Part shown: one piece after another, positions 30,361 through 47,840 of the stretch | How positions within the stretch are numbered: position 1 is the stretch's first letter | Layout of the letters: each line of letters starts with the position of its first letter | Origin: Acidobacteriota bacterium | GTDB lineage: Bacteria > Acidobacteriota > Blastocatellia > UBA7656 | NCBI GenBank assembly: GCA_040754075.1 | Contig: JBFMDH010000018.1 | Span: 1 to 64,000 of the forward strand | Direction of reading: 5' to 3' | Length of the DNA: 64,000 bases | Program-made: the position numbers and the translations under genes | The notes under the pieces: model-generated | Seen by the model: the letters and a program-made list of their open reading frames with translations, nothing else | The model's database searches: none | Told to the model about the DNA's origin: nothing

Positions 30361-31260
30361 TTATCTTCCGTTTCGTTTACGAATCGCTTCCAGCGTGTTC
30401 AAAGCCTGTTGTCGCACCGCATCAGACATTCCGGTCATCTGTCCGGTGTAGCGTTGAATTGCGGGAATATCTTCCGTTTGTCCGACAAGGTATAACGCCT
30501 TCAAGGTTTCAAATGCCTGTTCGACAGACGGCGCGATGGTAATCAACTCATCGCCGATTTTAACCGTTGATTTATCGGCAACGAGTATCGCTTGAATGCG
30601 CGCATCGTCAGTCGAGCGAACTTCGACGATTTGCCCATCGGCTTTTTTAATTCTGGCAAGCGGGGTGTTTTCGGAAATGGCGCGACCTTCTTCGGAGATC
30701 AGGAGTTCAATCTCGCCATCGGTTTCTGCTCTGAGAGTTTGCGATTCAAGCATGGCAAGCAATTCTTTGCGCCCCGATGGGTCATTGAAACGAACCAGTT
30801 GTAAAGCGGCGTTATGGCGAACCCCGGCGTTGGCATCCTGCAACAACTCAAGCAGCGATTGATGAAACTCCTGAGATTGATTGTCCTGTCCCATCGTCCA
30901 CGCTGCCATTTTACGAACCTGCGGCGCTTCATTTTTTGCGGTCGCTACAATCAACGGATACCATCGCTGCACTGACTGATCGCCCTCGATAATTTTGTTG
31001 CCGATGTAAGAAAGCGCGTGTTGCACATTGCGGGGTTTTTCTTTGTCGGTTAGATATTGCTGAATTTTTTCATCTGAAAGCGGACGACCAAACCATGAAC
31101 CATACCACGACAGAAAAGGGATGAAGATAAACAGAAAAATCACCACAATCATCGCCCAGGGGTATCGCCGTTTGGCATTGGTCACCGGTATGGCGTCGAG
31201 CAATTCAATATCTCGATCAACCGATGATGAATCATTATTTTGCTTATTCTCGCTATTCAC
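30361..31260 (-). CDS. Membrane-anchored HEAT-repeat protein with a small beta-barrel insert
   Basis: This 299-residue protein has a single N-terminal membrane helix (about residues 36-55, AMIVVIFLFIFIPFLSWYG). HEAT-like helical repeats follow, for example EAPQVRKMAAWTMGQ and DANAGVRHNAALQLVRF. At about residues 180-240 the sequence TDGEIELLISEEGRAISENT and IGDELITIAP resembles a barrel-sandwich (lipoyl/biotinyl-like) hairpin without an attachment Lys motif. It is in the same direction and downstream of the oxidase genes, so a role in assembly or stability of the oxidase is plausible. No named family is recognised. Confidence 0.65.
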   Translation of the reverse strand: MNSENKQNNDSSSVDRDIELLDAIPVTNAKRRYPWAMIVVIFLFIFIPFLSWYGSWFGRPLSDEKIQQYLTDKEKPRNVQHALSYIGNKIIEGDQSVQRWYPLIVATAKNEAPQVRKMAAWTMGQDNQSQEFHQSLLELLQDANAGVRHNAALQLVRFNDPSGRKELLAMLESQTLRAETDGEIELLISEEGRAISENTPLARIKKADGQIVEVRSTDDARIQAILVADKSTVKIGDELITIAPSVEQAFETLKALYLVGQTEDIPAIQRYTGQMTGMSDAVRQQALNTLEAIRKRNGR

Positions 31261-31977: not shown

Positions 31978-32400
31978 TCAACGCGATGGAAACAGATGGT
32001 AAAGCATCAGGTAAACAATCACCCCGGTTACTGATACAAACAGCCATATCGGATAGGTCCAGCGCGCCACCCGACGATGTCTCTGAAATTGATTACGCAA
32101 AGCGCGAACCAGCGTGGTGATGACAAACGGCACCATGACTGCCGCAAGAATGGTATGCGGAATCAAAATCGAAAGATAGGTGATACGCGCCCAACCGGGA
32201 CCTTGAAAGCGAACCGAACCAACGTTGTAGTGATAAATCAGATAGCAGATTAAAAACAGTATCGAAGCGGTCACTGCGCCAAGCATGCACAGACGATGAG
32301 TGTTCATATTGCGGCGACGAATCATCAAATATCCGGCGATTAAAAATACCGCGCTGGTGGCATTCAAACAGGCATTAAGGGTTGGAAAAAATTGAATCAT
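31978..32400 (-). CDS. DUF420 (CtaM-like) membrane protein
   Basis: This 140-residue four-helix membrane protein contains conserved His and Arg positions of the DUF420 family: FPTLNACLNATSAVFLIAGY, RRRNMNTHRLCML, LIYHYNVGSVRFQGPGW, and the C-terminal RRVARWTYPIWLFVSVTGV. DUF420/CtaM proteins are needed for heme A-type oxidase maturation in Firmicutes and usually sit near cta/cox genes, as here. Confidence 0.85.
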   Translation of the reverse strand: MIQFFPTLNACLNATSAVFLIAGYLMIRRRNMNTHRLCMLGAVTASILFLICYLIYHYNVGSVRFQGPGWARITYLSILIPHTILAAVMVPFVITTLVRALRNQFQRHRRVARWTYPIWLFVSVTGVIVYLMLYHLFPSR

Positions 32401-32782: not shown

Positions 32783-33370
32783 TTACTCTTCCGCATGAAC
32801 CTTTTGAATCGCCGGGTCAGGGCGGTTATTAAACAAGCGATTCCCATCCGGGAATAAAATCGCAAATAAACAGAGCAACACAATCATCACCGGAATCACC
32901 GTCAGGATGAATGGTTTGGTTTCAAATTTCATGTGCATGAAATACGCCACAATCATTGCCGCTTTAATCAAAGACAGTCCAATGAGAATGATTAACATGG
33001 TAATCACGCCGACTTTGTAATAACCGAGCACCACTTCAATTCCCGTCAGTAACAGCAAGCCGCCCCAGATAAAGATATTTTCCCGGTTGGAACCGCCATG
33101 ATGGTCATCGTGAGCGTCTTCGACCGGGGTAATGTCTTCGGGAAACGGTTGCGCGACCAAACCTTTTTTCTTCGCCCAGAGATAGGGTGGCACGGCAAAT
33201 AACAGAGCTAATAACAGGCTCACTAAAATCAAAAACAGGTCATCGGTTCCAGACCTCAGCATATTGGCTCCGGTTGCTGCGGCAATCACCACACAAATAC
33301 CCGACAGCCCCAGTAATACCAGATTCAATATTTTCGATTCTCGCTCTTGTTTTTCTTGGGTGTGCTCCAT
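32783..33370 (-). CDS. Cytochrome c oxidase subunit IV-like protein
   Basis: This 195-residue membrane protein has a C-terminal half that matches prokaryotic oxidase subunit IV/CoxD: three helices with ITMLIILIGLSLIKAAMIVAYFMHMKFE, where the F-M-H-M-K-F signature is typical. Two extra helices occupy residues about 12-65, making it longer than usual (about 100 residues). A His/Asp-rich loop DAHDDHHGGSN lies between the halves. It is downstream of the two subunit III genes in the oxidase operon. Confidence 0.88.
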   Translation of the reverse strand: MEHTQEKQERESKILNLVLLGLSGICVVIAAATGANMLRSGTDDLFLILVSLLLALLFAVPPYLWAKKKGLVAQPFPEDITPVEDAHDDHHGGSNRENIFIWGGLLLLTGIEVVLGYYKVGVITMLIILIGLSLIKAAMIVAYFMHMKFETKPFILTVIPVMIVLLCLFAILFPDGNRLFNNRPDPAIQKVHAEE

Positions 33371-33407: not shown

Positions 33408-34082
33408 TTAATGCGGCAGGTTGGTCAGTTTGTGATCCATATCTACGGACATGATGTAAATCAACGGGAAGACAAACATCCAAACCAAATCAACGAAGTG
33501 CCAATACAAACCGCAGGTTTCTATGTCTTCGGGAGTCATCTTACGAATGCGCGTGGCAATCAATCCCAGATAAATCACCCCCGTGAAGACGTGAAACATA
33601 TGCAGTCCGGTGATGCCGAAAAATGCCGAACCGAACAGGATTGACGCATTTGGCCAAACCTTCAGCCATTCCTGCGGCAAGCTGTTGAAGTAGAGTCCTT
33701 CGCTCATTAAATGGTTCCATTCCGTCATGTGCAGGATGATGAACATCGAGCCGAAAAACATCGTCGCCCAAATCCAATAACGCGCCAGTCTTTTCTTGCC
33801 GCGCTTTCCGGCATCAACGGCAAAAACCATAGTCAAACTCGAAGACAGCAGCACTAAGGTCATCACGGTTGAAAAGATGATGCTCGGATTAAACGGAAAA
33901 GGTGTGGGCCAATCCTGACTTGAAAACCGCGCATAGCTATAGGCAATCAACAATGCCGCAAAAGTCAGGGCATCCGACATGATGAACAACCACATTCCCA
34001 GTTTTCTATGCCCGATGCGGTACGGTAACGCGCCGCCATCCCATTCACCCGTTAAGACTCCGACTTCCGGTGCGTCAGACAT
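33408..34082 (-). CDS. Heme-copper oxidase subunit III (second copy)
   Basis: This 224-residue protein is a five-helix heme-copper oxidase subunit III. Landmarks are KLGMWLFIMSDALTFAALLIAYSYARF, MTEWNHLMSEG, FGITGLHMFHVFTGVIYLG and CGLYWHFVDLVWMFVFPLIYI. It lies 21 bp downstream of another subunit III gene. The two are clearly different in sequence, so this is a tandem pair of paralogs rather than a recent duplication. This subunit contains no cofactor. It supports proton uptake and stability. Confidence 0.92.
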   Translation of the reverse strand: MSDAPEVGVLTGEWDGGALPYRIGHRKLGMWLFIMSDALTFAALLIAYSYARFSSQDWPTPFPFNPSIIFSTVMTLVLLSSSLTMVFAVDAGKRGKKRLARYWIWATMFFGSMFIILHMTEWNHLMSEGLYFNSLPQEWLKVWPNASILFGSAFFGITGLHMFHVFTGVIYLGLIATRIRKMTPEDIETCGLYWHFVDLVWMFVFPLIYIMSVDMDHKLTNLPH

Positions 34083-34103: not shown

Positions 34104-34808
34104 TTAGAAGAAAAACAACAATACAAATAAATAAATCCACAAGCCATCCATGAAATGCCAGTACAGAGAGGTCACTTCAACGGCATTGCGTTTTCGCTCG
34201 GTTATTCTGAGTTTAAGCGCAGCCAGGGTCACATACGAGAGCGCCATCACCCCGCCGATTAAATGCACAGCGTGCAACCCGGAGAGGATATAAAAAAATG
34301 AACTGTGGGGATGGCTGCTCAGATAAATTCCCTGCCCCGCAAGCTGTCGCCACGCAATCACCTGCCCGATAAGAAAGATCGCGCCGAGCGCCGTGGTGAT
34401 AACCAGCCAATTTTTGAATTGTTCATATTGATTTTTCTTTAAGGCGCGCCGGGCAAATTCAAAAGTGATGCTGCTGATTAAAATCACCCCTGTGGTAATC
34501 CACAACGCCGAAGGGATTTGCAAAGGAAACCAGTCTTTCGCCAAGCCCCCGCTATCTTTATCGATTTGCCGGATGATGTAGGCGCTGGTTAATGCCACAA
34601 AGAGCATGGCAACACTGATAATTCCCAGCCACATACCGATTTTATACTTCTTCGGCTCGATAGCATCATCGCGCGAAAAGCCCGGCGGCCAATCCGGGTG
34701 ATTGGGGTCATTGCCTTGCGGCCCGCCGCCATCTCCACCCATGTGTTGTCCACCACCTGCGCCGATTCCCGGCTTAACATTGATTCCTGAAACTGCCATC
34801 ATTTCCAT
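34104..34808 (-). CDS. Heme-copper oxidase subunit III (first copy)
   Basis: This 234-residue subunit III has a Gly-rich soluble N-terminal extension of about 50 residues (GGGQHMGGDGGGPQGND). Five helices follow, including KIGMWLGIISVAMLFVALTSA, GLHAVHLIGGVMALSYV and SLYWHFMDGLWIYLFVLLFFF. The start region offers three ATGs (34808, 34802, 34799). The first follows an AAAGAG site. The heptamer inverted repeat of locus B lies immediately upstream, between this gene and subunit I. Confidence 0.92.
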   Translation of the reverse strand: MEMMAVSGINVKPGIGAGGGQHMGGDGGGPQGNDPNHPDWPPGFSRDDAIEPKKYKIGMWLGIISVAMLFVALTSAYIIRQIDKDSGGLAKDWFPLQIPSALWITTGVILISSITFEFARRALKKNQYEQFKNWLVITTALGAIFLIGQVIAWRQLAGQGIYLSSHPHSSFFYILSGLHAVHLIGGVMALSYVTLAALKLRITERKRNAVEVTSLYWHFMDGLWIYLFVLLFFF

Positions 34809-34815
34809 CTCTTTA

Positions 34816-34964
34816 ATTGCGGATTGCGAAATGCGGATTGCGGATTGATTAGTGCCCGCCAGTTATAATTAAATCGCAATTGGTAATTGCCTCCGTATTA
34901 GAAGCGGATCAAGCAAATCTGCCAGTGATTAGCACCGGGCAATCCGCATTTCGCAATCCGCAAT
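34816..34964. repeat. Heptamer inverted-repeat pair (locus B)
   Basis: Positions 34816-34840 and 34940-34964 form a perfect 25-bp inverted repeat built from ATTGCGG-type heptamers, with one variant unit (GCGAAAT). About 99 bp separate the arms. It fills the gap between oxidase subunits I and III. The right arm shares the word CAATCCGCATTTCGCAATCC with the right arm of locus C at 45435, 10 kb away. Confidence 0.9.
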
Positions 34965-34974
34965 CCACAATTGT

Positions 34975-36789
34975 TTAATCTCCATGAACCTTTGCGCCCG
35001 GCGGTTCGGTTTGCATCGAGTAATCCTTGGCTTCACCGGGTACGCTGAATTCATAAGGTCCCCGATACACCACAGGTTCCACGCCCCCGAAATTATCGAA
35101 CGGCGGCGGCGAAGGAATATCCCATTCCAGCGTAGTCGCTTCCCACGGGTTGACCTCGGCTTTCTTACCCTTGGCGAGACTCCAGAACACGTTGAATAGA
35201 AACACAAATTGCGCGGCGATGGTAATAATTACCATTATTGTTATGAACCGGTGTAAAGGCATCACACTCTTTAGAAAATTTAATTCGTCATGGGTCGAAT
35301 AACGCCGAGGCGCGCCGACCAGTCCCATTACATGAAATGGAATGAATATCGCATTGACGCCAATGAAAGAGATAAAGAAATGCAGTTTCCCCAAACCTTC
35401 ATTCATCTTGCGACCAAACATTTTCGGGAACCAGAAATAGGTTCCGGTGAAGATGCCGAAGATCGCCGCCACCCCCATAATCAAATGAAAATGCCCCACC
35501 GGGAAATAGGTGTCGTGAAGCGAGATGTCAACCGTTGTCTGTCCCAGGAAAAGCCCTGTGATACCGCCCGAAACGAAAAGCGAGACAAACCCCAACGAAA
35601 ACAGCATCGGCGTATCAAAACGGATTTGACTGTTCCAGAGGGTTCCCAGCCAGTTAAAGGTTTTAATTGCCGAAGGCACGCCAATCGTCAGCGTGATGAG
35701 TGAAAAGGCGATGGCGGTTCGCGGATCCATCCCACTCATAAACATATGGTGTCCCCAGACGAAAAAGCCTAATAAGCCAATCGCAAAAATTGCATAGACC
35801 ATCGCTTTGTAACCGAATACCGGTTTGCGCGCGAAGGTTGACAGCACATGGGAAGTCAGCCCCATACCCGGAAGGATGGCGATGTAGACTTCCGGGTGTC
35901 CAAAAAACCAGAACAGATGCTGCCACAAAATCGGCGACCCGCCCGATTGTTCGGTCTCCGATGAAATCAATTTACCGCTGACATAGGTTCCGGTTGGAAT
36001 GAAGAAACTGGTGCCGCCCAGTTGATCGAATAACAGCAGCACGCCTGCGGCTAAAAGCACCGGGAATGAAAGCAGCGAAAGCACCGCAGTGGTAAACCAT
36101 GCCCAGCAAGTCAGCGGCAAGCGCATTAGCGATAACCCTTTGGTTCGCATATTGAGCATCGTGGTGATGAAATTTAACGAACCCAGCAACGACGCGACAC
36201 AGAAGAAAGCAATACTCGTCACCCATAGCTGAACGCCAAGCCCTTGCCCGGGTCCTGCAATATCGCCAAGCGCACTGAGCGGCGCATAACCTGTCCAGCC
36301 TCCGATGGGTCCCAAGGTCGTCGCCGTACAAAAGAGCGCGGCAATCGCAAAGGCTAACGCAATAAAGGTTGTCCAGAAAGACAACATATTGAGAAGCGGA
36401 AATGCCATGTCAGCCGCGCCGATTTGAATCGGCAGAAAATAATTTCCGAATCCTCCCTGCGGCGCAGTCGTCAATACGAAAAACACCATGATGGTGCCGT
36501 GCATCGTAACCAGTGACAGGTACATCTCCGGGGTGATGACCCCGTTTGGCGCGGCTTCTGGAAACAGCGTCTTCAAAAACCCGAACGCCTGTCCAGGATA
36601 GGCGAGTTGTAAGCGCATCAAAAGAGAAAGTCCCATTCCGACAAATGCCGAAAATAGCGCCAGAAAGAAATACTGAATACCGATTACCTTATGGTCTAAA
36701 CTGAAAACATATTTCCGCCACCAGGTCGTCGGGGGGGCATGATGATGCGCGCCGCCAGACTCATGGGTTGGATGTATGACTTCTGCCAT
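34975..36789 (-). CDS. ctaD: Cytochrome c oxidase subunit I (aa3 type, A family)
   Basis: This is the 604-residue catalytic subunit that reduces oxygen and pumps protons. Twelve or more helices are present. Heme and copper ligands are visible: MHGTIMVFF (low-spin heme His), FGHPEVYIAILPG (CuB His and cross-linked Tyr, with the A-family Glu), the WGHHMFMSG His pair, and HDTYFPVGHFHLIMG (heme a3 and heme a His). The K-channel Lys is in VPSAIKTFNWL. A His-rich N-terminus (HESGGAHHHAPP) precedes the first helix. No extra cytochrome or subunit III domain is fused at the C-terminus. The oxidase operon order is II, I, III, III', IV. Confidence 0.97.
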   Translation of the reverse strand: MAEVIHPTHESGGAHHHAPPTTWWRKYVFSLDHKVIGIQYFFLALFSAFVGMGLSLLMRLQLAYPGQAFGFLKTLFPEAAPNGVITPEMYLSLVTMHGTIMVFFVLTTAPQGGFGNYFLPIQIGAADMAFPLLNMLSFWTTFIALAFAIAALFCTATTLGPIGGWTGYAPLSALGDIAGPGQGLGVQLWVTSIAFFCVASLLGSLNFITTMLNMRTKGLSLMRLPLTCWAWFTTAVLSLLSFPVLLAAGVLLLFDQLGGTSFFIPTGTYVSGKLISSETEQSGGSPILWQHLFWFFGHPEVYIAILPGMGLTSHVLSTFARKPVFGYKAMVYAIFAIGLLGFFVWGHHMFMSGMDPRTAIAFSLITLTIGVPSAIKTFNWLGTLWNSQIRFDTPMLFSLGFVSLFVSGGITGLFLGQTTVDISLHDTYFPVGHFHLIMGVAAIFGIFTGTYFWFPKMFGRKMNEGLGKLHFFISFIGVNAIFIPFHVMGLVGAPRRYSTHDELNFLKSVMPLHRFITIMVIITIAAQFVFLFNVFWSLAKGKKAEVNPWEATTLEWDIPSPPPFDNFGGVEPVVYRGPYEFSVPGEAKDYSMQTEPPGAKVHGD

Positions 36790-36890: not shown

Positions 36891-37757
36891 TCAATTCGCC
36901 GCGATTACTTTTGAACTATTGACTTCGTATCGTTCCATCAATTGTCCCAAGCGCTCTTTGTATTTTTCGGGAGTCATCGCGGTTAAAGCGTCATAATCTT
37001 CCTGCGGCAAAACCAATAAAAAAGTTTTCATATTGAAATGCAGCGAGCCGCAGAGTTCGGCACAGGCGATTTCATATTTGCCCACTTCCGTTGCTTTGAA
37101 ATGAATGCGGACATTCATTCCCGGAACCGCGTCCTGTTTGATTCTAAGCGCAGGAACGAAGAGACTGTGAATCACATCTTTGGAACGGATGCGCAACGCG
37201 ACCGGACGTTTTTCTGGAACCACAAGCGTTGAAATCTGAATATCGTCTTTGCCGTTGGGGTCGTCAGGGTCTACGCCGACGAAATTCAAAGACCCGTCAT
37301 TGATGAATTTGGTATTGGTTTTACCGGTGACGCCATCGGCTCCGGGGTAATGAAAATTCCATTGGAATTGTTGCGCCACAACTTCGATATTGGTGGCTTC
37401 GGCATCGCTCGGTTGATTGAGGTGAATGCCTGCCCAGACGATTTGTCCATACACGGCGACGACGACGAAAACCACAGCCGTAATTACTGTCCAGACGGCT
37501 TCGAGTTTATTATTGCCGTGGGTATATTTTGACCGCTCATTGCCTTTTCTTCCGTAGCGAAAAACTGCCCATGCCAATGCCAGTTGACAGGTAATAAAGG
37601 CAAAGCCGACCACCACAAGGGTGCGGTTAAATTGGTCATCAACCTTAGGCCCGTGCTCCGAGATGGGATGAACGAACCACCAGTTTCCGCTCCAGAATGT
37701 CCATGCCGAACCGACCGTTAAAGCGACAAGTAATAATGCCAATAGGATTTTGCTCAT
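36891..37757 (-). CDS. ctaC: Cytochrome c oxidase subunit II with Cu-A site
   Basis: This 288-residue protein has two N-terminal membrane helices (residues about 4-20 and 47-66) and a periplasmic cupredoxin domain. The Cu-A ligands appear in HSLFVPALRIKQDAVPGM and CAELCGSLHFNM. No CxxCH motif follows, so this is an aa3-type rather than a caa3-type subunit II. An outside carrier must therefore deliver electrons. Candidates are the octaheme cytochrome or the cupredoxin-like lipoprotein encoded upstream in the same cluster. Confidence 0.96.
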   Translation of the reverse strand: MSKILLALLLVALTVGSAWTFWSGNWWFVHPISEHGPKVDDQFNRTLVVVGFAFITCQLALAWAVFRYGRKGNERSKYTHGNNKLEAVWTVITAVVFVVVAVYGQIVWAGIHLNQPSDAEATNIEVVAQQFQWNFHYPGADGVTGKTNTKFINDGSLNFVGVDPDDPNGKDDIQISTLVVPEKRPVALRIRSKDVIHSLFVPALRIKQDAVPGMNVRIHFKATEVGKYEIACAELCGSLHFNMKTFLLVLPQEDYDALTAMTPEKYKERLGQLMERYEVNSSKVIAAN

Positions 37758-37839: not shown

Positions 37840-38742
37840 CTAACGGTTAATCACCATCAATCCGAAAAGAATTGGCAAATAGAGAACTGAAGCCAACAGC
37901 AACTGCCGGGCTTGCCATTTGGTTCTCTGCATTGCAGTGCGAATGCTGACGAATAAAAACGCCAGTCCAAGCGCGCACGCGCCAGCGAAATAAATTTTCC
38001 CCGAAATATTTACTAGAGTCGGCAATAAACTCACAGGCAAAAGCAACAACGTATACGTGACGATTTGTTGCCCTGTGACTTTGCCTTCGGGTTCAACGAC
38101 CGGCAACATTTTGATTCCGGCTTTGGCGTAATCTTCGCGATACATCCAGGCAATCGCCAAAAAATGCGGGAACTGCCACAAAAACAAAATCGCAAACAAT
38201 ATCCAGCCTTCGATGCTCAGATAACCGCGCGCTGCAACCCAACCGACAAGCGGCGGCATCGCCCCCGGAAACGCGCCCCAAAATGTTGAAAGCGTCGTGC
38301 GGGTTTTGAGCGGCGTGTAAATCAACAAATAAGTCGCCGCGGTGATGACTCCGAGAAGCGCGGTCAGCGAATTCACTGTCCATGCCAGATAAACATTCGC
38401 CAGAACGATTAATCCCATGCCAAAGATAAACGCCTGTCTGGCATTCAATTTTCCGGTCGGCAACGGTCTCGCTTTGGTGCGTAACATCAACGCATCGAGG
38501 TCACGTTCCATCCATTGATTGATGGTCGCAATTCCCGATGAGAGAACGCTCACGCCTAAAATGAGATTAAAGAGTTTCAACCAGTCAATTCCCTGCTCAA
38601 CTCCCAGACAAAAGCCCGCGATGGTCGTCAGCACAACTAAAAACGTGATGCGCGGTTTGGTGAGTTCAACAAAGGCGCGCAGCTTTTCCCGCACCGGCAA
38701 TTCGGCGACATCGTCGTTTAGAATTCTATTTACGGATTCCAT
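37840..38742 (-). CDS. ctaB: Heme O synthase (protoheme IX farnesyltransferase)
   Basis: This is a 300-residue UbiA-type membrane prenyltransferase. It adds a farnesyl chain to protoheme IX, the first step to heme A. The prenyl-diphosphate site is INQWMERDLDALMLRTKARP, with the second Asp-rich loop YREDYAKAGIKMLPVV. Nine helices are predicted. It starts 5 bp after heme A synthase and precedes the oxidase genes, so cofactor synthesis and apoenzyme are co-expressed. Confidence 0.96.
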   Translation of the reverse strand: MESVNRILNDDVAELPVREKLRAFVELTKPRITFLVVLTTIAGFCLGVEQGIDWLKLFNLILGVSVLSSGIATINQWMERDLDALMLRTKARPLPTGKLNARQAFIFGMGLIVLANVYLAWTVNSLTALLGVITAATYLLIYTPLKTRTTLSTFWGAFPGAMPPLVGWVAARGYLSIEGWILFAILFLWQFPHFLAIAWMYREDYAKAGIKMLPVVEPEGKVTGQQIVTYTLLLLPVSLLPTLVNISGKIYFAGACALGLAFLFVSIRTAMQRTKWQARQLLLASVLYLPILFGLMVINR

Positions 38743-38747
38743 TTCGA

Positions 38748-39698
38748 TTACACCGTCGCCTTTCTTGCCGAAGACATAGCCTTCTCATTCACACCGGCGT
38801 TTTGCGGAGCCAGCACCTTGTAGCAACGCGCGGTCAATACCACCATCGCCGCCAAAGTTAATGCCCCAACCACGACGTGGGATGCGGTCAGTGAAATCAT
38901 CGGTTCAAGCGGTTGCGGGTCATCTTTTGAAGCCACCCGCGCAAAGTAAGCCGCGATTCCGAGTCCCACCTGCAATATCATTAAGCCCAAGACTGCCCAA
39001 GCCGGACGGCGAATCCATCGCTCATCGTGCCTGGTTAGCACTGCTGATGCTGTCCAGATAATCAAACCTGCAACCAAACCGGCTCCGACAATGTGCGGGA
39101 TGATGCCCCACGCGCCATGTCGAAACCCCGCGCCTAAAACCAGTTGCAATAAAACCGCGCCGATGGTTGCCACCGTCAAGGTTCTAAGCGCCACCCCACC
39201 TTCATCTTTTATGGTCTGACGTTCAACAAACCAACCGCGTGAAGTGAAGACCGCAAGCGCCACGATCAAACCGAAAAAGCTCTGTGCGATGAGCGCGTGC
39301 GGCACAGCGATTTGCGGTTTATAAGCCGGAAACCAAACTCGTATGCCGCCGATTGCCGCTTGTGCAACGACGCCAACAAAAGCCAGCAGCGCGAGGGTTT
39401 TCACCCATTTGCGTTTTTCGGAAAACCAGATTGAAAGAGCCAGTAAAAAAGTGGTGAAACCCACGACACCTGCAATGAACCGGTGCGAATATTCATAGCG
39501 CACATTTGCAATGAAATTGTCAGAATGAATCAACCAGCGTCCGAATGACAGGGGCCAATCAGGAACCGAATCCCCGGCTTCGTTACTGGTAACGAGCGCA
39601 CCGGCAACCAGCAAAATAATAATTAAAAAAGCTAAGAAAATTGCGAAATAATGGAGCCAGATTTTAGGCTCGAAACCTACATCTACTTGCTTACTCAA
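38748..39698 (-). CDS. ctaA: Heme A synthase
   Basis: This is a COX15/CtaA-type membrane protein that oxidises heme O to heme A. The frame opens at 39812, but a TTG at 39698 with a GAGG site about ten bases upstream gives a 316-residue product of normal size beginning SKQVDVGFEPKIWLHYF. The extra 38 codons upstream would run through a strong hairpin (39777-39804). Family features include VTSNEAGDSVPDWPLSFG, YSHRFIAGVVGF with a heme-ligand His, GGIRVWFPAYKPQIAVPHALIAQ, FRHGAWGIIPHIVGAG and SLTASHVVVGALTLA. Confidence 0.9.
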   Translation of the reverse strand: MSKQVDVGFEPKIWLHYFAIFLAFLIIILLVAGALVTSNEAGDSVPDWPLSFGRWLIHSDNFIANVRYEYSHRFIAGVVGFTTFLLALSIWFSEKRKWVKTLALLAFVGVVAQAAIGGIRVWFPAYKPQIAVPHALIAQSFFGLIVALAVFTSRGWFVERQTIKDEGGVALRTLTVATIGAVLLQLVLGAGFRHGAWGIIPHIVGAGLVAGLIIWTASAVLTRHDERWIRRPAWAVLGLMILQVGLGIAAYFARVASKDDPQPLEPMISLTASHVVVGALTLAAMVVLTARCYKVLAPQNAGVNEKAMSSARKATV

Positions 39699-39776
39699 AA
39701 CTACAAACCTCGATTCGTTAATTTGATAAACGACAAGTAAAGCATAGAACTCATCATTCAACAAATCTGATAACGA

Positions 39777-39804
39777 ACGACGCGCCCCCATCAGAGCGCG
39801 TCGT
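39777..39804 (-). terminator. Strong hairpin between the cupredoxin gene and ctaA
   Basis: A perfect 9-bp stem, ACGACGCGC (39777-39785) with GCGCGTCGT (39796-39804), lies just beyond the upstream gene's stop on the minus strand. The following bases are only moderately T-rich, so it may slow or partly end transcription, splitting the b/c part from the oxidase part. Confidence 0.5.
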
Positions 39805-39811
39805 AAAATCA

Positions 39812-40636
39812 TTAAGGAACAATCAACGCCGGTTCAACCGTGAGCGATGTCGGAATGAATGCGGCTTTCGGCGAGAAGGTGAGATCCTGCACCTTCGATT
39901 CTTTCGCCGTAACTTCGATGCTCATCTGTTTTTCGCCCAACTTTTCGTGAAAGGCAATCAACGTATATTTGCCCGGCGGCACATTTTTAATTGAGAAAGA
40001 GCCGTCTTTGCCGCTCACTGCATAAAACGGATGACCGAGAACGCCGATATGCGCAACCATCCAGGGGTGTTGATTACATTTCACCGGAATCAGAGTTTCA
40101 GCTTTTTTAAAAACCTCTTTAAACGGCGCTTGCCCGGCGGATTGCACTTTGTTCCATTCGGGATTATTTTTCGGCGATGGGTGAACGTTATGCGTTGTCT
40201 GGTCACTGTTGCGAATTTCCAAAGTTTGCCCGACCTGAACGCCTAAAACGCGCGGCGTGTAACGACAACCATGCTGGTCGAGAACCACGACCTCTGACGG
40301 AGCGCCGAATTCAAATTTATCGGCGTTGCCGCCTTTCAAATAGACGAAGACGTTTTGCAAATTGCCGTTTTCTACCAGCACATCATCATTGAGTTTATCG
40401 CCTTCGGCGCGAACACAATTGGCGTCCTGACTCATATCAATTTTCGCGCGTTCGGGAGCCGTGCCATCGAATTTAATCACGCCTTTGATTTCTCCTTCAT
40501 CGGCTTTCGATTCGTATTTGGCTTTTTTAGGAGTATCTAAATTCTCCTCCAGGTTTTTCTTCTTAGGCTTACAATTGGCAACCATCATCGCCAGGACGAC
40601 AATTGCCAGCAGTAAAATTGCAGACTTCTTGAACAT
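39812..40636 (-). CDS. Cupredoxin-like copper lipoprotein
   Basis: This 274-residue lipoprotein has lipobox Cys at residue 22 (MVANC) after a hydrophobic signal. A charged linker leads to a beta domain with a type-1 copper set: H149 in TTHNVHP, and C187, H190 and M193 in KCNQHPWM. The C-terminal part (about 195-260, GSFSIKNVPPGKYTLIAFHEKLG) is a carboxypeptidase-regulatory-like fold. Similar proteins are annotated as methylamine-utilisation or plastocyanin-like. Lying between the octaheme cytochrome and heme A synthase, it is a good candidate for carrying electrons to Cu-A, though this is inferred. Confidence 0.75.
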   Translation of the reverse strand: MFKKSAILLLAIVVLAMMVANCKPKKKNLEENLDTPKKAKYESKADEGEIKGVIKFDGTAPERAKIDMSQDANCVRAEGDKLNDDVLVENGNLQNVFVYLKGGNADKFEFGAPSEVVVLDQHGCRYTPRVLGVQVGQTLEIRNSDQTTHNVHPSPKNNPEWNKVQSAGQAPFKEVFKKAETLIPVKCNQHPWMVAHIGVLGHPFYAVSGKDGSFSIKNVPPGKYTLIAFHEKLGEKQMSIEVTAKESKVQDLTFSPKAAFIPTSLTVEPALIVP

Positions 40637-40715: not shown

Positions 40716-43700
40716 CTAACGACCCGCTCCCGTCTGAGAAAGTTTATCCGTCTTGCGCTTGCCGGTTGCTGCTGTCTTATTCGCCTCAGCAGGTTTTTGT
40801 CCGGCTGGCGCAGGTGCAGGCGCGGCTCCGCTTGCGGCTCCCGCTTTCAATCTTCCCTGTTCATCAGGGGTAATCTGGAACATATACCGTACCAGTAAAT
40901 CCGCATGGTCTTTGGTATAGGTTTGAATTTGCGGCGAGGTCACGCCTTTCATAATCCAGCGGTCGTGCTCAGGAATGGTGTCGCGTTCAAACAGCCCCGA
41001 AGGCATAGCGGTTCCGGGACTGATGATTTGCGGTTCCAGCATCCAACGCCTTGTCCATTCGGGTTTCAATCGCTCTTTGGCAATCAGGAAATTCGGCGCG
41101 GTGGCTTTGGCATCGTGCGCCGCATCGCCAGTCATATGACATTTCAAACAAGGTGCCGCCTGTGAACTGAACATGGCGCGCGCCATGGTCTGTTCATCCG
41201 GCGTCAACTGCTCCATCGGCTCAGGCATATAAGGCATCTGTTGCGAAGATGCGCCCATAAAGAAATTGACCAACGCCTGCAATTCATTCTGCGAGAAATT
41301 AAATGTCGGCATCCTGACTTTCAAGTAAGAACGCACACCGTTTCGACTTACGCCCCACTGCCGCCCCAATGTCCAGGCTTGCTCGATGGCTCCGTTTGCC
41401 TGCGCGGGTTGCGCAGTTGCGAGCGGCGGACCGGGTTTGGCGGGAGCCGCAGCCGCAGGTTTCGCCTGCGCGGGTTGTCCCGTCAAATGGGCTGCCATAG
41501 CCTGTTTCACGGCATTCGCATCACCCGAACTGAGCGATGGGTCTTTCAAAAATTTCAACAACCATTCGGGATTGACGCGCGCCCCCTGGGTGGTCAGGCG
41601 CGGCGGCAACATTTCCGCTTGCCCCTGATAAATCGGCACCGTGCTGATTGCCGTTTCGGGTTGTCCGATTAACACATTGTGACAACCCATGCAGTTATAT
41701 TTCTGTACGACCCACCAACCGTCCTGCACGGCTTTCTTTTGACCTGTAGGGGTGTAACGCATCGAAGCCGGGAGCGGGGTTTCAACACTGCCTAATAAAA
41801 ACGTGGTCAAGGCATCAATATCCGGTTTTTCCAGATAGATATTGGGCATCTTCAAACGCTCTTCGGGCGGCTTCTCTTTGCCTTTATCGTAGATTCCCGG
41901 ATTGCGCAGTTTATTCTCAAAAAATCCTTTATGGTCGTACCACTTGCGACCTTCGCCATTGGTGTAGGGGTCTTCTCCGCGTTTTGCCGGTTCGGTAAGC
42001 AAGGCAAAGTCGAGGCGTTCAATCGGCTTGCTGCCTTCGGGCGTGAGTTCCGTGCCGATGCGTTGCTCTTCTTCAAGACCGCTGATTTCATGACAACCGG
42101 CGCATCCGTAAGTTTTCGCGAGTTTTTCGCCTTTTGCCGCAAGTTCTTTGTCATCCATAAAGGATGCCGCCGGGTAGCCTTCATTCTTTTTCAAAGAGAA
42201 TAAGAATGTCGCAACATCGCGGGCTTCTGATTCGGTTAAGCGGAAATTCGGCATCACGGTCATATTGTGAATTTGTAATTCACGACCATCAACCGGACTC
42301 TTTGAATGCTCATCATCAAACAGGAACGGTTTGCCAACCTTCTTATAATCATCGGGCAGCAAATCTTTTTTGGCGAATGGCGAAAAGGGAGTCAGGCGTT
42401 TGCGCGGATTATAAATCCAGCGCACGATGTAATCGTAGTTGGCTTTCTCGCCAACCCTTGAAAGGTTCGCGGCAAAATGTCCGCCAACGATACCTTTTCC
42501 TGTGCCAATGGCTTCTCCGTCAATGGCGTGACAAGCCAGACAGCCAATGGATTTGAAAATCTCTCTGCCATTGTTGGCATCGCCCATCGTTTGAGTTTGA
42601 ACTTTGACATCCAACGCCTTCTGCCAGATGAACGCCGAGATGGCTTGAATTTCATCATCATCCAAACGGAAAGACGGCATCTTGGTTCCCGGTCGAAATG
42701 CCTGCGGGTCTTTGAGCCAACCCGGGATCCAATCCTTCACCAATTTCGCTTTAATCTCTTTCAGATTGGGTCCGACTTTTTTGGCGTCCTGCATTAAATA
42801 CTTCGATTGTCTTTCATATTCGGCGATTTTGGCGTCGAGTTGACTGATGAGTTGCGGAATTTCAACGCCGGCGCGATTGCGCAGTCGTCGCGTTTCATCT
42901 TCGTCTGTAGCATTATCGGCAGCCGCGTTGGTCTCTTTAATTTCTCGCAACCGAACTTCGCGTTCGAGTTCCAGAAGGCGAATTTGTTGCCGGGCATTGG
43001 CAAGCGCATCGGTTTCGCGGTCATACCCTTCATAACGGTGACATCCTGTGCAACCGCGAACCTGGAAAAGTTGTTTACCATCATTGAGCGTGGTCGCCAT
43101 TTGCGTCACACGGTCAGCTTTGTGGCATTGATTACAACCAGCCTGCACATTCTCTTTGTAATAGAGCGGCCAGAGCCAGTGTTTATAACGACCGTGCCCT
43201 TTTTCAACCGAAACGGTTCCGCGACCATTGCCACCATGACAGAGCGAACACCCGAAGCGTTCGGGGTCATGAGTTTTTAAGAGGTCTTGATTGGGATGCG
43301 AAGCAAAGGCGATGGATTTTTCATCCACCTCGCGCTCATCGTTTGCCATGTTGACCGGCTTGATTGGCAACGGTTCGCGAATTCCCAGATGGCAGGATTC
43401 ACAACGGTCAACAACATCGCCTTCTTTGACATGAATCTGTTTAATTTTGAATTCAAACTTTTCGACCTTATCTTCAAGCTGGCTGATTTGCTGGCTGCTT
43501 AAACCAATCACGTTATCCTGCAAATAGGTATCGTAATTTTTCTTAGCTTGGGAAACCGGTTTATTCAATACCACGACTTCGGCGGCAAGCGCAGCTTTGC
43601 GGTCGTTCAACTCATTATATTTTTTCTCCAGTTCATAAAAGTCCATCGAGACTTTCTGTTCATTGCCGGCGTTGTCATGGAGTTTGATGGTATCTTTCTC

Positions 43701-44192
43701 TTTTTTCTTGTTGGCGATTTCGTCACGGTATTTTTGGCGTCCGCTTTCCGGCGCATTTTCGAGGTTGAAGGTTTTTGCAGCAACCCAGGCGCGGGTATCT
43801 TGAAATTTAGGCGTAATGTCATCGAGTTGCTGGTTGATGGCGCGGGTTTCTGCCTCAATCTCTTTTAATCGCGGTGTCGCCTTTTTAGTTTCATCATCCA
43901 ATTTTTCTTTGAAATCGACATATTCGGGAGTGGCTCTCACTTCGGCTTCGGTTCTCCCCTGGCGAGCTTTCACGCGTTCGAGATAATCGGCGTAGCGTGT
44001 GACAAATTCCTGCTGATAGGTTTTCCAGGGTCTTTGCGTGATGATTTCGTCATACATCGACCAGAGCATGACGGCAACCAGCGCCAACGCAGAAAGCAGG
44101 ATTGGAAAACTCAATGATTTTTCAGCAATCGGATCCGGTTTAGGGGTTTCAGTTGTTTTTTTCTCCAATGCCTCATTCACATTATCAGCCAT
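40716..44192 (-). CDS. Giant membrane-anchored octaheme c-type cytochrome
   Basis: This is a 1158-residue protein with eight CxxCH heme sites at Cys 264, 315, 353, 381, 551, 697, 834 and 1015. One N-terminal membrane helix (about 28-46) precedes a long coiled-coil stretch (about 95-250). The first three hemes are closely spaced (CESCH, CSLCH, CNQCH). The later ones sit in class-I cytochrome modules with probable Met ligands (PGTKMPSF, VMPNF, KMPNIY, VRMPTF, GTAMPSG). An Ala/Pro-rich linker lies at 905-935, and the C-terminus is again Ala/Pro-rich. It follows the cytochrome b genes where cytochrome c1 or f would be encoded, so I infer it takes electrons from the Rieske protein and passes them on. 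No close named family is known to me. Confidence 0.85.
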   Translation of the reverse strand: MADNVNEALEKKTTETPKPDPIAEKSLSFPILLSALALVAVMLWSMYDEIITQRPWKTYQQEFVTRYADYLERVKARQGRTEAEVRATPEYVDFKEKLDDETKKATPRLKEIEAETRAINQQLDDITPKFQDTRAWVAAKTFNLENAPESGRQKYRDEIANKKKEKDTIKLHDNAGNEQKVSMDFYELEKKYNELNDRKAALAAEVVVLNKPVSQAKKNYDTYLQDNVIGLSSQQISQLEDKVEKFEFKIKQIHVKEGDVVDRCESCHLGIREPLPIKPVNMANDEREVDEKSIAFASHPNQDLLKTHDPERFGCSLCHGGNGRGTVSVEKGHGRYKHWLWPLYYKENVQAGCNQCHKADRVTQMATTLNDGKQLFQVRGCTGCHRYEGYDRETDALANARQQIRLLELEREVRLREIKETNAAADNATDEDETRRLRNRAGVEIPQLISQLDAKIAEYERQSKYLMQDAKKVGPNLKEIKAKLVKDWIPGWLKDPQAFRPGTKMPSFRLDDDEIQAISAFIWQKALDVKVQTQTMGDANNGREIFKSIGCLACHAIDGEAIGTGKGIVGGHFAANLSRVGEKANYDYIVRWIYNPRKRLTPFSPFAKKDLLPDDYKKVGKPFLFDDEHSKSPVDGRELQIHNMTVMPNFRLTESEARDVATFLFSLKKNEGYPAASFMDDKELAAKGEKLAKTYGCAGCHEISGLEEEQRIGTELTPEGSKPIERLDFALLTEPAKRGEDPYTNGEGRKWYDHKGFFENKLRNPGIYDKGKEKPPEERLKMPNIYLEKPDIDALTTFLLGSVETPLPASMRYTPTGQKKAVQDGWWVVQKYNCMGCHNVLIGQPETAISTVPIYQGQAEMLPPRLTTQGARVNPEWLLKFLKDPSLSSGDANAVKQAMAAHLTGQPAQAKPAAAAPAKPGPPLATAQPAQANGAIEQAWTLGRQWGVSRNGVRSYLKVRMPTFNFSQNELQALVNFFMGASSQQMPYMPEPMEQLTPDEQTMARAMFSSQAAPCLKCHMTGDAAHDAKATAPNFLIAKERLKPEWTRRWMLEPQIISPGTAMPSGLFERDTIPEHDRWIMKGVTSPQIQTYTKDHADLLVRYMFQITPDEQGRLKAGAASGAAPAPAPAGQKPAEANKTAATGKRKTDKLSQTGAGR

Positions 44193-44287: not shown

Positions 44288-45241
44288 TCAGATATTGAAC
44301 CAGGGAGTCACCATTACATATTTGATTCTGAATAACTGGCGAGCGAGTAATTTCACCGGCATCGCCCACAATACAGTGATTGCAAAAAACTGAAATATCG
44401 AATACTGCAAGAAGGTGGTGCGCTCGAAAATTTTCTTATCGAATTGCGTGCGGGTAACGATTTTGTGAGTTAAAAAACCCGCCACGGCAAAGAAAATTCC
44501 GACCACTACCGCGCCAATCAATCCTTTCCAGGGTTGTTGTCCGGCAAACGTCAGCCCCCAATTCACCAGAATATCCGGCAAATCGCGGTTGACTTCGTAA
44601 GGCACGGTGTTGTGATCCCAGGTTTGTCCGGGCCAAAACCACACCCATCCGGGACCGCGCATAAAAGTGCCGATGATAATCAACGCCACCCAGGTCGCAA
44701 AGCCGATTAAAAAAGCGCCGACCGCAATCTTTCGCTGCTTCCAGGTGTAATAACCGGAGCCGAGCGGGTTGGCGTCAACATACGGAAACACCATCAAACC
44801 GATGAGAATCAAGGTTGGCATCACCACCCCGGCAATCCACGGGTCGAAATAAACCAACATTTCTTGAAGCCCCAGAAAGTACCAGGGCGCTTTCGATGGA
44901 TTCATCGTCAGGTTGGGATTCGATGGCTCTTCGAGCGGCGCATTAAGTCCTATCGACCAGACATACAGAATAATCGTGACAATGACCGCTGCCAGGAATT
45001 CCACACGCAGCAGATAAGGCCAGACGTGCAATTCTTTCGCCCATCCGCTTTGAAAGGGCAAGGTTTTGCGATGATGGGTTTTCGCCATCTGCGGGTTTTG
45101 TTCCAACTCGCCAACCAGCCGGTCATTCGCCAGTGCCTGTTTGAATCCGAGCCAGGTAAAAAACGGTATCAGAAACAGCATTGCGACAATCGGAATATTG
45201 TCCGGCAAGGTGGTGATTTCCCATAATTGATGCCAATCCAT
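44288..45241 (-). CDS. Cytochrome b C-terminal (subunit IV-type) protein, extended
   Basis: This 317-residue membrane protein is encoded from the ATG at 45241, which has GGAGG just upstream. A longer frame opens at 45364, but its extra 41 codons are only translated heptamer repeat. The Qo-site region reads KAPWYFLGLQEM instead of the mitochondrial PEWY, a form seen in menaquinol-type bc complexes. Helices follow at PWIAGVVMPTLILIGLMVFPYV and later. It is about twice the length of chloroplast subunit IV, with extra C-terminal helices. It partners with the cytochrome b6-type gene upstream to make a split cytochrome b. Confidence 0.88.
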   Translation of the reverse strand: MDWHQLWEITTLPDNIPIVAMLFLIPFFTWLGFKQALANDRLVGELEQNPQMAKTHHRKTLPFQSGWAKELHVWPYLLRVEFLAAVIVTIILYVWSIGLNAPLEEPSNPNLTMNPSKAPWYFLGLQEMLVYFDPWIAGVVMPTLILIGLMVFPYVDANPLGSGYYTWKQRKIAVGAFLIGFATWVALIIIGTFMRGPGWVWFWPGQTWDHNTVPYEVNRDLPDILVNWGLTFAGQQPWKGLIGAVVVGIFFAVAGFLTHKIVTRTQFDKKIFERTTFLQYSIFQFFAITVLWAMPVKLLARQLFRIKYVMVTPWFNI

Positions 45242-45250
45242 ATTTCCTCC

Positions 45251-45466
45251 ATTGCGGATTGCGGATTGCGGATTGCGGATTTTCAGATTCGCTTTCCGAT
45301 TCCAGATTGATGGTTGCGAAATACTAAGTAGGTAGGAAGTAGTTCTTTTACACGAAACACGCAAAAAAGCCTGAAAAATAGCTGATTCTTGTCAAATAAC
45401 TTTTTTCCACCTACTTAATTGATCAACTTTTTGTCAATCCGCATTTCGCAATCCGCAATCCGCAAT
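45251..45466. repeat. Heptamer inverted-repeat pair (locus C)
   Basis: The left arm (45251-45278) is four exact tandem copies of ATTGCGG. The right arm (45435-45466) is built of the reverse-complement units. Positions 45251-45270 and 45447-45466 are perfectly inverted over 20 bp. The 176 bp between the arms has no gene. It lies between the two cytochrome b genes. The right arm nearly repeats that of locus B. Confidence 0.9.
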
Positions 45467-45470
45467 TGAA

Positions 45471-46433
45471 TTACTTTCCTGCGGCTCCTTTAACCGAACG
45501 CGCGCCAGCCGCTTTCATTTCGGATTCGAGCATAACCGGTGCGGGACCTGAAATGCCGCCATCTTTACGGACACGCCAGAAATGCACAGCAAGCAAGACA
45601 CTGACGATGGTCGGAATCGCGATGCAGTGCCAGATGTAACTGCGCAGCAAGGCATTGGCATCAACGATTGACCCGCCAAGCAAAGCGAAGCGCACATCGT
45701 TATATTGCGTCATGCCCATCTGCACGCCGAACGGACCTTCATTGCCGAGCATTGGCGAAGCTTTTGCCATATTGGTGCCGACGGTTACCGCCCAGAATCC
45801 CAACTGGTCATCGGGTAACAGATAGCCTGTAAAACTGAGCAACAAGGTTAAGGTCAATAGCACCACACCGACCGCCCAGTTAAATTCTCTCGGCGTTTTG
45901 TATGAACCGGTGAGCACCACGCGAAACATATGCAGCCAGGTGGTAATGACCATCAAATGCGCTCCCCAGCGGTGCATATTGCGCAGCAGTTTGCCGAAAG
46001 GCACATCGTTTTCAAGATAAATAATGTCCTGATACGCCATGCCTTTGCTCGGATGGTAATAAAACATCAGCAAGATGCCGGTGAAGGTCAACACGATAAA
46101 CAGATAAAAAGTTATACCGCCCATTCCCCAGGTATAACTGAAGCGCACCGCGTCACGATTAACCTTTGCCGGGTGCAGGTGCAAAAAGACGTTGGTTAAA
46201 ACGCCCAGTGAGCGCGCGCGCGGGGTCGGTTCGTGTTTGACGCGAAAGATGGATTTATAGAGCTGAGTTTTCGTCGGGTCTTTGAGATTTTCCAGTTCGG
46301 ATTGTAAATTCTCTTTACTGGTTTTGGTCTTCATTAAGGCGATGTCTTCTTTGATTCCTTCGCGAAGTTTATCGACCAACCCGACACTAGACTCAGGTCG
46401 CTTTTGCAGTAGCTCAGGCTTTTCAGGTTCCAT
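45471..46433 (-). CDS. Cytochrome b6-type protein (N-terminal cytochrome b)
   Basis: This 320-residue protein carries the two b hemes. The His pairs are in NMHRWGAHLMVITTWLH (14 apart) and WHCIAIPTIVSVLLAVH (15 apart). The 14/15 spacing is the cytochrome b6 pattern, as against 14/14 in mitochondrial-type cytochrome b, and fits the split gene arrangement. A hydrophilic N-terminal extension of about 90 residues precedes the first helix. Quinol oxidation takes place with the subunit IV-type protein and the Rieske protein encoded on either side. Confidence 0.93.
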   Translation of the reverse strand: MEPEKPELLQKRPESSVGLVDKLREGIKEDIALMKTKTSKENLQSELENLKDPTKTQLYKSIFRVKHEPTPRARSLGVLTNVFLHLHPAKVNRDAVRFSYTWGMGGITFYLFIVLTFTGILLMFYYHPSKGMAYQDIIYLENDVPFGKLLRNMHRWGAHLMVITTWLHMFRVVLTGSYKTPREFNWAVGVVLLTLTLLLSFTGYLLPDDQLGFWAVTVGTNMAKASPMLGNEGPFGVQMGMTQYNDVRFALLGGSIVDANALLRSYIWHCIAIPTIVSVLLAVHFWRVRKDGGISGPAPVMLESEMKAAGARSVKGAAGK

Positions 46434-47315: not shown

Positions 47316-47567
47316 ACTGAAGGGTCTCCATAACTGCTGTTAATGAATAAATATGAAAGTAAAATGCCTGAGTGAAAATCCCGGACAAGCCTTCCCCCAA
47401 AACTCCGTATGAATATTACTGAGCTATCTTATTTTTTTCCCAAACAACTTTTGAAAATGATTATACAAAGACTATCTTTTGAAGCGGCACTTTTATAGCA
47501 TGAGCGTTCTTTGAGTGTCAAAGCGATTGATGAAAATTTCTAATCCATTGAATCAAAACTTTTCATT

Positions 47568-47840
47568 ATGAAGAACACAAACCCACCAGCTAAAGCCATT
47601 GTCACCATCTACACGCGCCCCGGTTGTCACCTCTGCGAAGATGCCAAAGCCAACATTTTGGCTTCCGGTTATGCATCCTGTTTCACCATTGAGGAAATAA
47701 ATATTGACGAAGATGAAACCCTGAAACAACAGTTTCAATACGATATTCCGGTCATCCGAATAAACGGCATCAAAGTTTTCAAACACTTCGTTGACCCGAA
47801 AGCATTCGCCCGCAAATTCAAACGAATTGCCGGCATCTAA
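47568..47840 (+). CDS. Glutaredoxin-like thiol protein
   Basis: This 90-residue protein of the glutaredoxin/DUF836 type has the active-site pair in YTRPGCHLCEDA (C-H-L-C), a cis-Pro in YDIPVIRINGIKVF and the C-terminal helix. It belongs to a small thioredoxin-fold group often called glutaredoxin-like protein. It is divergent from the Rieske gene, with 252 bp between starts, and may support cofactor or cytochrome maturation, but no direct link is shown. Confidence 0.88.
   Translation: MKNTNPPAKAIVTIYTRPGCHLCEDAKANILASGYASCFTIEEINIDEDETLKQQFQYDIPVIRINGIKVFKHFVDPKAFARKFKRIAGI

Follow-up and report, generated by a model that had tools for sequence, protein, structure and literature searches.

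How do electrons leave a cytochrome b6-type complex for an aa3-type oxidase when a Pfam scan of the core proteins encoded beside them finds neither cytochrome c1 nor cytochrome f? The question is raised by a 64,000-nucleotide stretch of an Acidobacteriota genome (GenBank assembly GCA_040754075.1, contig JBFMDH010000018.1, positions 1 to 64,000; hereafter the window), in which Rieske, b6-type cytochrome b and subunit IV-type genes lie together with a single, very large gene for a c-type cytochrome with eight heme sites (the octaheme protein), followed by genes for heme A synthesis and an aa3 oxidase. We find that this cassette probably encodes a b6-type quinol-oxidising complex that has the octaheme protein as its c subunit and feeds the co-encoded aa3 oxidase.

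The octaheme protein and the cytochrome b core

The core of the cassette comprises four genes:
40716 to 44192, minus strand: octaheme c-type cytochrome, 1158 amino acids, with an ATG start and GGAGG upstream of it
44288 to 45241, minus strand: subunit IV-type protein with about six hydrophobic segments, matching PF00032 and, weakly, ExtQ/cytb6_f_IV
45471 to 46433, minus strand: b6-type cytochrome b with His154/168 and His269/284 (14 and 15 residues apart), PF00033
46557 to 47315, minus strand: Rieske [2Fe-2S] protein with one transmembrane helix and the motifs CTHLGC...CPCHGSGY, Pfam PF00355

The octaheme protein is read from one open frame and has exactly eight CxxCH motifs (residues 264, 315, 353, 381, 551, 697, 834 and 1015), which account for every one of its sixteen cysteines, and a single strong hydrophobic segment at residues 26-44, the membrane anchor; this is the membrane-anchored, eight-heme protein that a first-pass annotation of this DNA had described. 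A chance origin of the motifs is ruled out, as 20,000 shuffles of the protein never gave a CxxCH count above one per shuffle, and a frameshift fusion of separate cytochromes is ruled out by the uninterrupted frame and by the same eight-heme layout in its homologues. The homologue set draws both on whole genomes within the phylum and on contigs of public genomes; it numbers 31 including the window protein (pairwise identity mean 51%, minimum 26%), and exactly eight CxxCH are present in 31/31. Pfam places class-I cytochrome c domains in the protein (E 6e-21), together with a stretch at 260-358 that is like cytochrome c7. Throughout the set, no His or Met is invariant except the eight proximal His and H299, H308, H333, M505, M647, M782, M961 and M1063. 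Because conservation thus leaves the sixteen presumed axial ligands as the sole invariant His and Met, the simplest reading is that hemes 1-3 are bis-His, ligated by the three additional His, and hemes 4-8 class-I His/Met, ligated by the five Met in turn, which bears out the earlier view of a multiheme-type start followed by class-I modules. The same annotation saw a long coiled-coil stalk. Helical stretches are indeed predicted, but as two hairpins (~56-227 and ~388-473) and not as one stalk, these being the only parts at which the structure model is usable (predicted local distance difference test score, pLDDT, mostly 65-85); the second would sit within the heme-4 module, between CxxCH 381 and Met505. 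The named full-length public relatives come from metagenome-assembled genomes labelled Acidobacteria, Terriglobia and Bacillota (the last probably misassigned), and none were found in IMG/VR viral contigs or in plasmids.

Pfam and TIGR matches together with motif checks confirm the neighbours as a Rieske protein, a b6 cytochrome with 14/15 His spacing, a subunit IV and an aa3 oxidase. The Rieske cluster motifs are kept in 27/27 homologues and the paired heme b ligands with b6 spacing in 26/26 proteins in which both pairs were measurable. The window cytochrome b has no Cys at the heme-cn position (TWGMGGIT), and in the cassette homologues Gly replaces the Cys expected of b6f proper. At one divergent locus (L155:6512-7315, G242:C18) the cytochrome b does have Cys here (TWCMGG), unlike all others. 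All 29 subunit IV homologues (29/29) carry APWY(F) where the Qo motif PEWY(F) is usual. A genome-wide search of the source genome found no cytochrome c1, ruling out a c1 encoded elsewhere, while the search for cytochrome f was the scan of core cassette proteins and not genome-wide.

The N-terminal module of the octaheme protein (~240-395) recurs in about 30 more distant loci, where the proteins have between four and eight hemes and the gene nearly always lies directly 3' of cytochrome b/subunit IV; these loci include a second, small genome group, reached via L014. Common to the octaheme protein and these distant c subunits (e.g. L010 with 6 hemes, L014/L162 with 5, L112 with 7 and L128 with 8) is the arrangement DRCxxCH ... 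H ... H ... GCxxCH ... H ... CxxCH ... CxxCH directly after cytochrome b/subunit IV. The distant proteins differ in being shorter (320-671 residues, apart from divergent forms of 734 and 944), mostly with fewer class-I modules, and in their loci b and IV are often fused and cupredoxin or aa3 genes are mostly missing within the stretches read. Such a series would describe the c subunit as a modular chain, built on a constant base of four hemes and ranging from four or five hemes in all to eight. Since the module follows cytochrome b/subunit IV and the genome has no c1, the octaheme protein very probably serves as c subunit in a menaquinol-oxidising complex of the b6 type, and the proposal that it stands in place of c1 or f is upheld, with the conservation of the cassette as further support. 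The eight-heme relative of 671 residues, in a b/Rieske cluster at L128:4837-11845 (G003:C95), adjoins a molybdopterin oxidoreductase of 1166 residues.

Conservation of the cassette and its probable cupredoxin lipoprotein

Downstream of the octaheme gene, the window continues as follows:
39812 to 40636, minus strand: lipoprotein (Cys22) with a predicted amicyanin-like cupredoxin domain at ~105-205 and a C-terminal carboxypeptidase-regulatory-like domain
38748 to 39812, minus strand: heme A synthase CtaA, named from sequence reading and conserved order; start probably internal
37840 to 38742, minus strand: heme O synthase CtaB, named from sequence reading and conserved order
36891 to 37757, minus strand: oxidase subunit II with Cu-A site CAELCGSLHFNM and no heme c; TIGR02866 above cut-off
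34975 to 36789, minus strand: aa3-type oxidase subunit I, PF00115 E 1e-136
34104 to 34808, minus strand: oxidase subunit III-like protein, named from reading and position
33408 to 34082, minus strand: second oxidase subunit III-like protein, named from reading and position
32783 to 33370, minus strand: oxidase subunit IV-like protein, named from reading and position
31978 to 32400, minus strand: small membrane protein, DUF420/CtaM-like by reading (oxidase assembly)

The first-pass annotation had called for homologues with the same gene order, and a collinear cassette is found in several families. In tblastn searches the order Rieske, b, subunit IV, octaheme protein, cupredoxin lipoprotein, CtaA, CtaB is kept at nearly all loci with a long enough contig, and a single-protein search with the octaheme protein (P0001) gave matches at E 1e-40 or better in 19/297 sampled genomes of the phylum. 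The oxidase operon is more mobile: it is collinear behind the cassette in the window and, where the contig permits, at L113-L120, oriented opposite to it at L121-L124 and L126, upstream of it at L148, L149 and L151-L153, and not seen near it at L143, L144, L146 and L147; in the f16 lineage the oxidase genes are away from the cassette. Relocation of the oxidase leaves CtaA and CtaB behind in the cassette. The DUF420/CtaM-like gene is kept with the cassette in several genomes; a role of CtaM in oxidase assembly is described (PMC8239418). No gene for an NAD(P) oxidoreductase is present in the window cassette or in the conserved cassette.

Three further observations concern the window itself. At the operon end, 30361-31260 encodes HEAT repeats and a lipoyl-like stretch, and this too is kept with the cassette in several genomes. 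Two operon gaps (34835-34966 and 45256-45461) contain inverted copies of GGATTGCGGATTG, with six matches against 0.24 expected. A small open reading frame at ~47566-47840 on the plus strand, divergent from the Rieske gene, is glutaredoxin-like by eye (YTRPGCHLCEDA).

The octaheme protein had been called the only c-type protein of the cluster, a statement that overlooks the probable cupredoxin encoded next to it as a potential carrier. Residues H149, H152, C187, H190 and M193 of this lipoprotein are invariant in 28/28 complete homologues, so that the predicted copper ligands H149/C187/H190/M193, in the pattern His-(x37)-Cys-x2-His-x2-Met, are likewise kept in 28/28. Over almost the whole domain, a profile built on residues 105-205 finds matches in solved amicyanins (E 5e-4 to 1e-3) and in a blue (type-1) copper protein (E 3e-4), which gives weak independent support to the predicted cupredoxin domain; Pfam copper families score below cut-off only. 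The predicted ligand pattern is like that of blue copper carriers of the amicyanin/auracyanin type, and unlike them the window protein is a lipoprotein with an extra carboxypeptidase-regulatory-like domain.

The cupredoxin gene lies 3' of the octaheme gene wherever the contig goes on, except at the divergent L155. It is ruled out as a marker restricted to the octaheme cassette, the family being present in 157/297 genomes of the phylum versus 19 for the octaheme protein. Among twelve sampled loci without an octaheme gene (L173-L184), the cupredoxin gene adjoins oxidase subunit genes at L173, L174 and L183, an oxidase plus genes like the source genome's own ACIII-like cluster at L181, CtaA/CtaB/DUF420-like genes at L175 and L177, and diheme proteins at L176, L178, L180, L182 and L184, of which the one tested is MauG/MbnH-type; at L179 it has no evident partner. 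These contexts suggest an electron-transfer role with the oxidase.

A proposed electron path and competing explanations

From these genes we infer a physical complex and, within it, an order of the hemes, a direction of flow, copper binding and a last hop. Quinol, probably menaquinol by analogy with the phylum, would be oxidised at the Qo site, with one electron going to the Rieske cluster while the other crosses the b hemes. From the Rieske head the electron would reach the N-terminal four-heme domain of the octaheme protein, the part common to other cytochrome-b-associated multiheme subunits, and the electron would then move through the class-I domains, outward from the core. The final hop to Cu-A of the aa3 oxidase may be made by the tethered cupredoxin lipoprotein, which we think somewhat likelier, or by a class-I domain directly. 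We rate a copper relay at least as likely as direct contact of the octaheme protein with Cu-A because the cupredoxin is found beside oxidase or heme-A genes even where there is no octaheme protein. A stronger version, in which the octaheme protein and a lipid-tethered blue copper protein would form a fixed wire from the b6-type complex to aa3, and so a menaquinol:oxygen assembly with no diffusible carrier in an entire clade of the phylum, we put forward only tentatively and with more doubt than belief.

Several points weigh against this assignment of the cassette. Neither protein has a usable three-dimensional model (mean pLDDT 39 for the octaheme protein from a 4-sequence alignment, 42 for the cupredoxin lipoprotein from a 3-sequence alignment), and gene order is not the same thing as physical contact. 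As all 29 subunit IV homologues have APWY, quinol chemistry could be altered. The earlier claim that there is no c1, f or small soluble cytochrome c stands for c1 across the genome; for small soluble cytochromes it holds for the cluster only, the genome encoding many class-I cytochromes c outside it, several of 120-170 residues (e.g. C6:107712, 142 residues, and C31:11241, 168 residues). Other oxidases are encoded as well: the genome has five cytochrome b and four COX1 genes, among them a cluster (L112:5506-11458, G000:C14, ~67.0-73.0 kb) of Rieske protein, fused b/IV, a heptaheme relative of the octaheme protein and ccoN/ccoO-type subunits, and another (L127:7143-19900, G000:C7) in which an oxidase with heme on subunit II lies next to NrfD-like, FeS/molybdopterin-like and monoheme c proteins, a set that may be read as ACIII-caa3. 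With these further b, oxidase and class-I c genes the organism has electron routes besides the octaheme cassette and is therefore not restricted to it. Two additional cytochrome b/Rieske clusters, L109:7887-13248 and L110:8242-15125 (G000:C15, C14), have 9- to 11-heme proteins nearby.

The alternatives differ in where they take the electron after the octaheme protein. If this protein were itself the sole carrier, linking the b/Rieske core to Cu-A within a permanent supercomplex, the linkage to the aa3 operon kept in many families, which favours some coupling, would be expected, as would a subunit II without its own heme; the heptaheme relative at L112 is moreover paired directly with its ccoN/ccoO-type oxidase, with no cupredoxin gene seen there, and in Corynebacterium complexes III and IV are known to form an obligate supercomplex that has its own c subunit (PMC5040959; review PMC8361435). 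However, the cupredoxin gene stands next to the octaheme gene wherever the contig goes on, one divergent locus apart, and its family accompanies oxidases without any octaheme protein; the oxidase genes are away from the cassette in f16 and divergent or upstream in other lineages, and the genome encodes other cytochromes c. We regard such a bridge as unlikely. The small class-I proteins among those cytochromes would suit an octaheme protein that feeds soluble cytochromes c or other periplasmic acceptors, with the aa3 linkage an incidental co-regulation of aerobic genes; the separation of oxidase and cassette in one lineage points the same way, as do N-terminal-module relatives that adjoin a molybdopterin enzyme or have no oxidase gene in view. 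Such an arrangement is nonetheless distinctly improbable in our judgement, as CtaA and CtaB, required for heme a, do not leave the cassette along with the oxidase.

The cupredoxin lipoprotein could alternatively be a copper donor for Cu-A or Cu-B assembly rather than an electron carrier, a role in keeping with the several genomes in which it adjoins CtaA/CtaB and a DUF420-like gene, at times with no oxidase subunit genes there. Yet its His-Cys-His-Met site with amicyanin spacing is typical of electron-transfer cupredoxins, relatives adjoin diheme proteins of which the tested one is MauG/MbnH-type, and four SCO1/SenC matches are already present in the genome, so that a donor function seems to us improbable, if worth bearing in mind. 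Lastly, the complex might run in reverse or bifurcate, as proposed for Kuenenia, and not act as a standard complex III. The atypical Qo motif and the missing heme-cn Cys would fit this, and similar anammox multiheme complexes are proposed to make NAD(P)H (PMC12954380), but the cassette lacks an NAD(P) oxidoreductase gene and is strongly associated with an O2-reducing aa3 oxidase, which makes this very improbable indeed. The preferred assignment remains a quinol-oxidising complex that passes electrons to the co-encoded oxidase.

Relation to known multiheme b6-type complexes

This soil-type bacterium and at least thirty relatives have a long, anchored, eight-heme protein in the position that a small cytochrome with one heme occupies in most respiratory chains. 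If our assignment is right, the cassette would provide an aerobic and widespread example of octaheme b6-type complexes, which have until now been treated chiefly in connection with anammox and nitrogen-cycle bacteria. With its putative copper protein, it would also make quinol-to-oxygen transfer without the usual soluble cytochrome c open to testing.

A multiheme c replacing cytochrome f already has precedents. In Nitrospina an atypical octaheme c, the only c subunit, adjoins a split b6-type operon, and Kuenenia and Methylomirabilis share this operon structure (Lucker et al. 2013, PMC3578206). In the b6-like complexes of Kuenenia cytochrome f gives way to a c protein with six or eight hemes, and subunit IV is enlarged (2025, PMC12954380). 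Given these published octaheme operons, the window cassette is a variant on a known theme: like those of Kuenenia (Kustd1480-1485, Kuste4569-4574), Nitrospina gracilis and Methylomirabilis oxyfera, it combines a Rieske protein with a split b6-like b, a subunit IV that is enlarged and a multiheme c, which in those systems has six or eight hemes. Kustd1485, whose long helices wrap the complex (PMC12954380), resembles the window octaheme protein in its size and long helices when their descriptions are compared. Unlike that of Kuenenia, the window cassette has no NAD(P) oxidoreductase, and it departs from all three in being linked to genes for heme A synthesis and for an aa3 oxidase, in the adjacent cupredoxin lipoprotein and in the lack of the heme-cn Cys. 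The actinobacterial bcc-aa3 supercomplex (PMC5040959, PMC8361435) likewise has a dedicated, membrane-bound, multi-domain c subunit in place of soluble cytochrome c. There, however, it carries two class-I hemes on a bc1-type core in a proven supercomplex, whereas the Acidobacteriota protein has eight hemes, in what would be a supercomplex by inference only.

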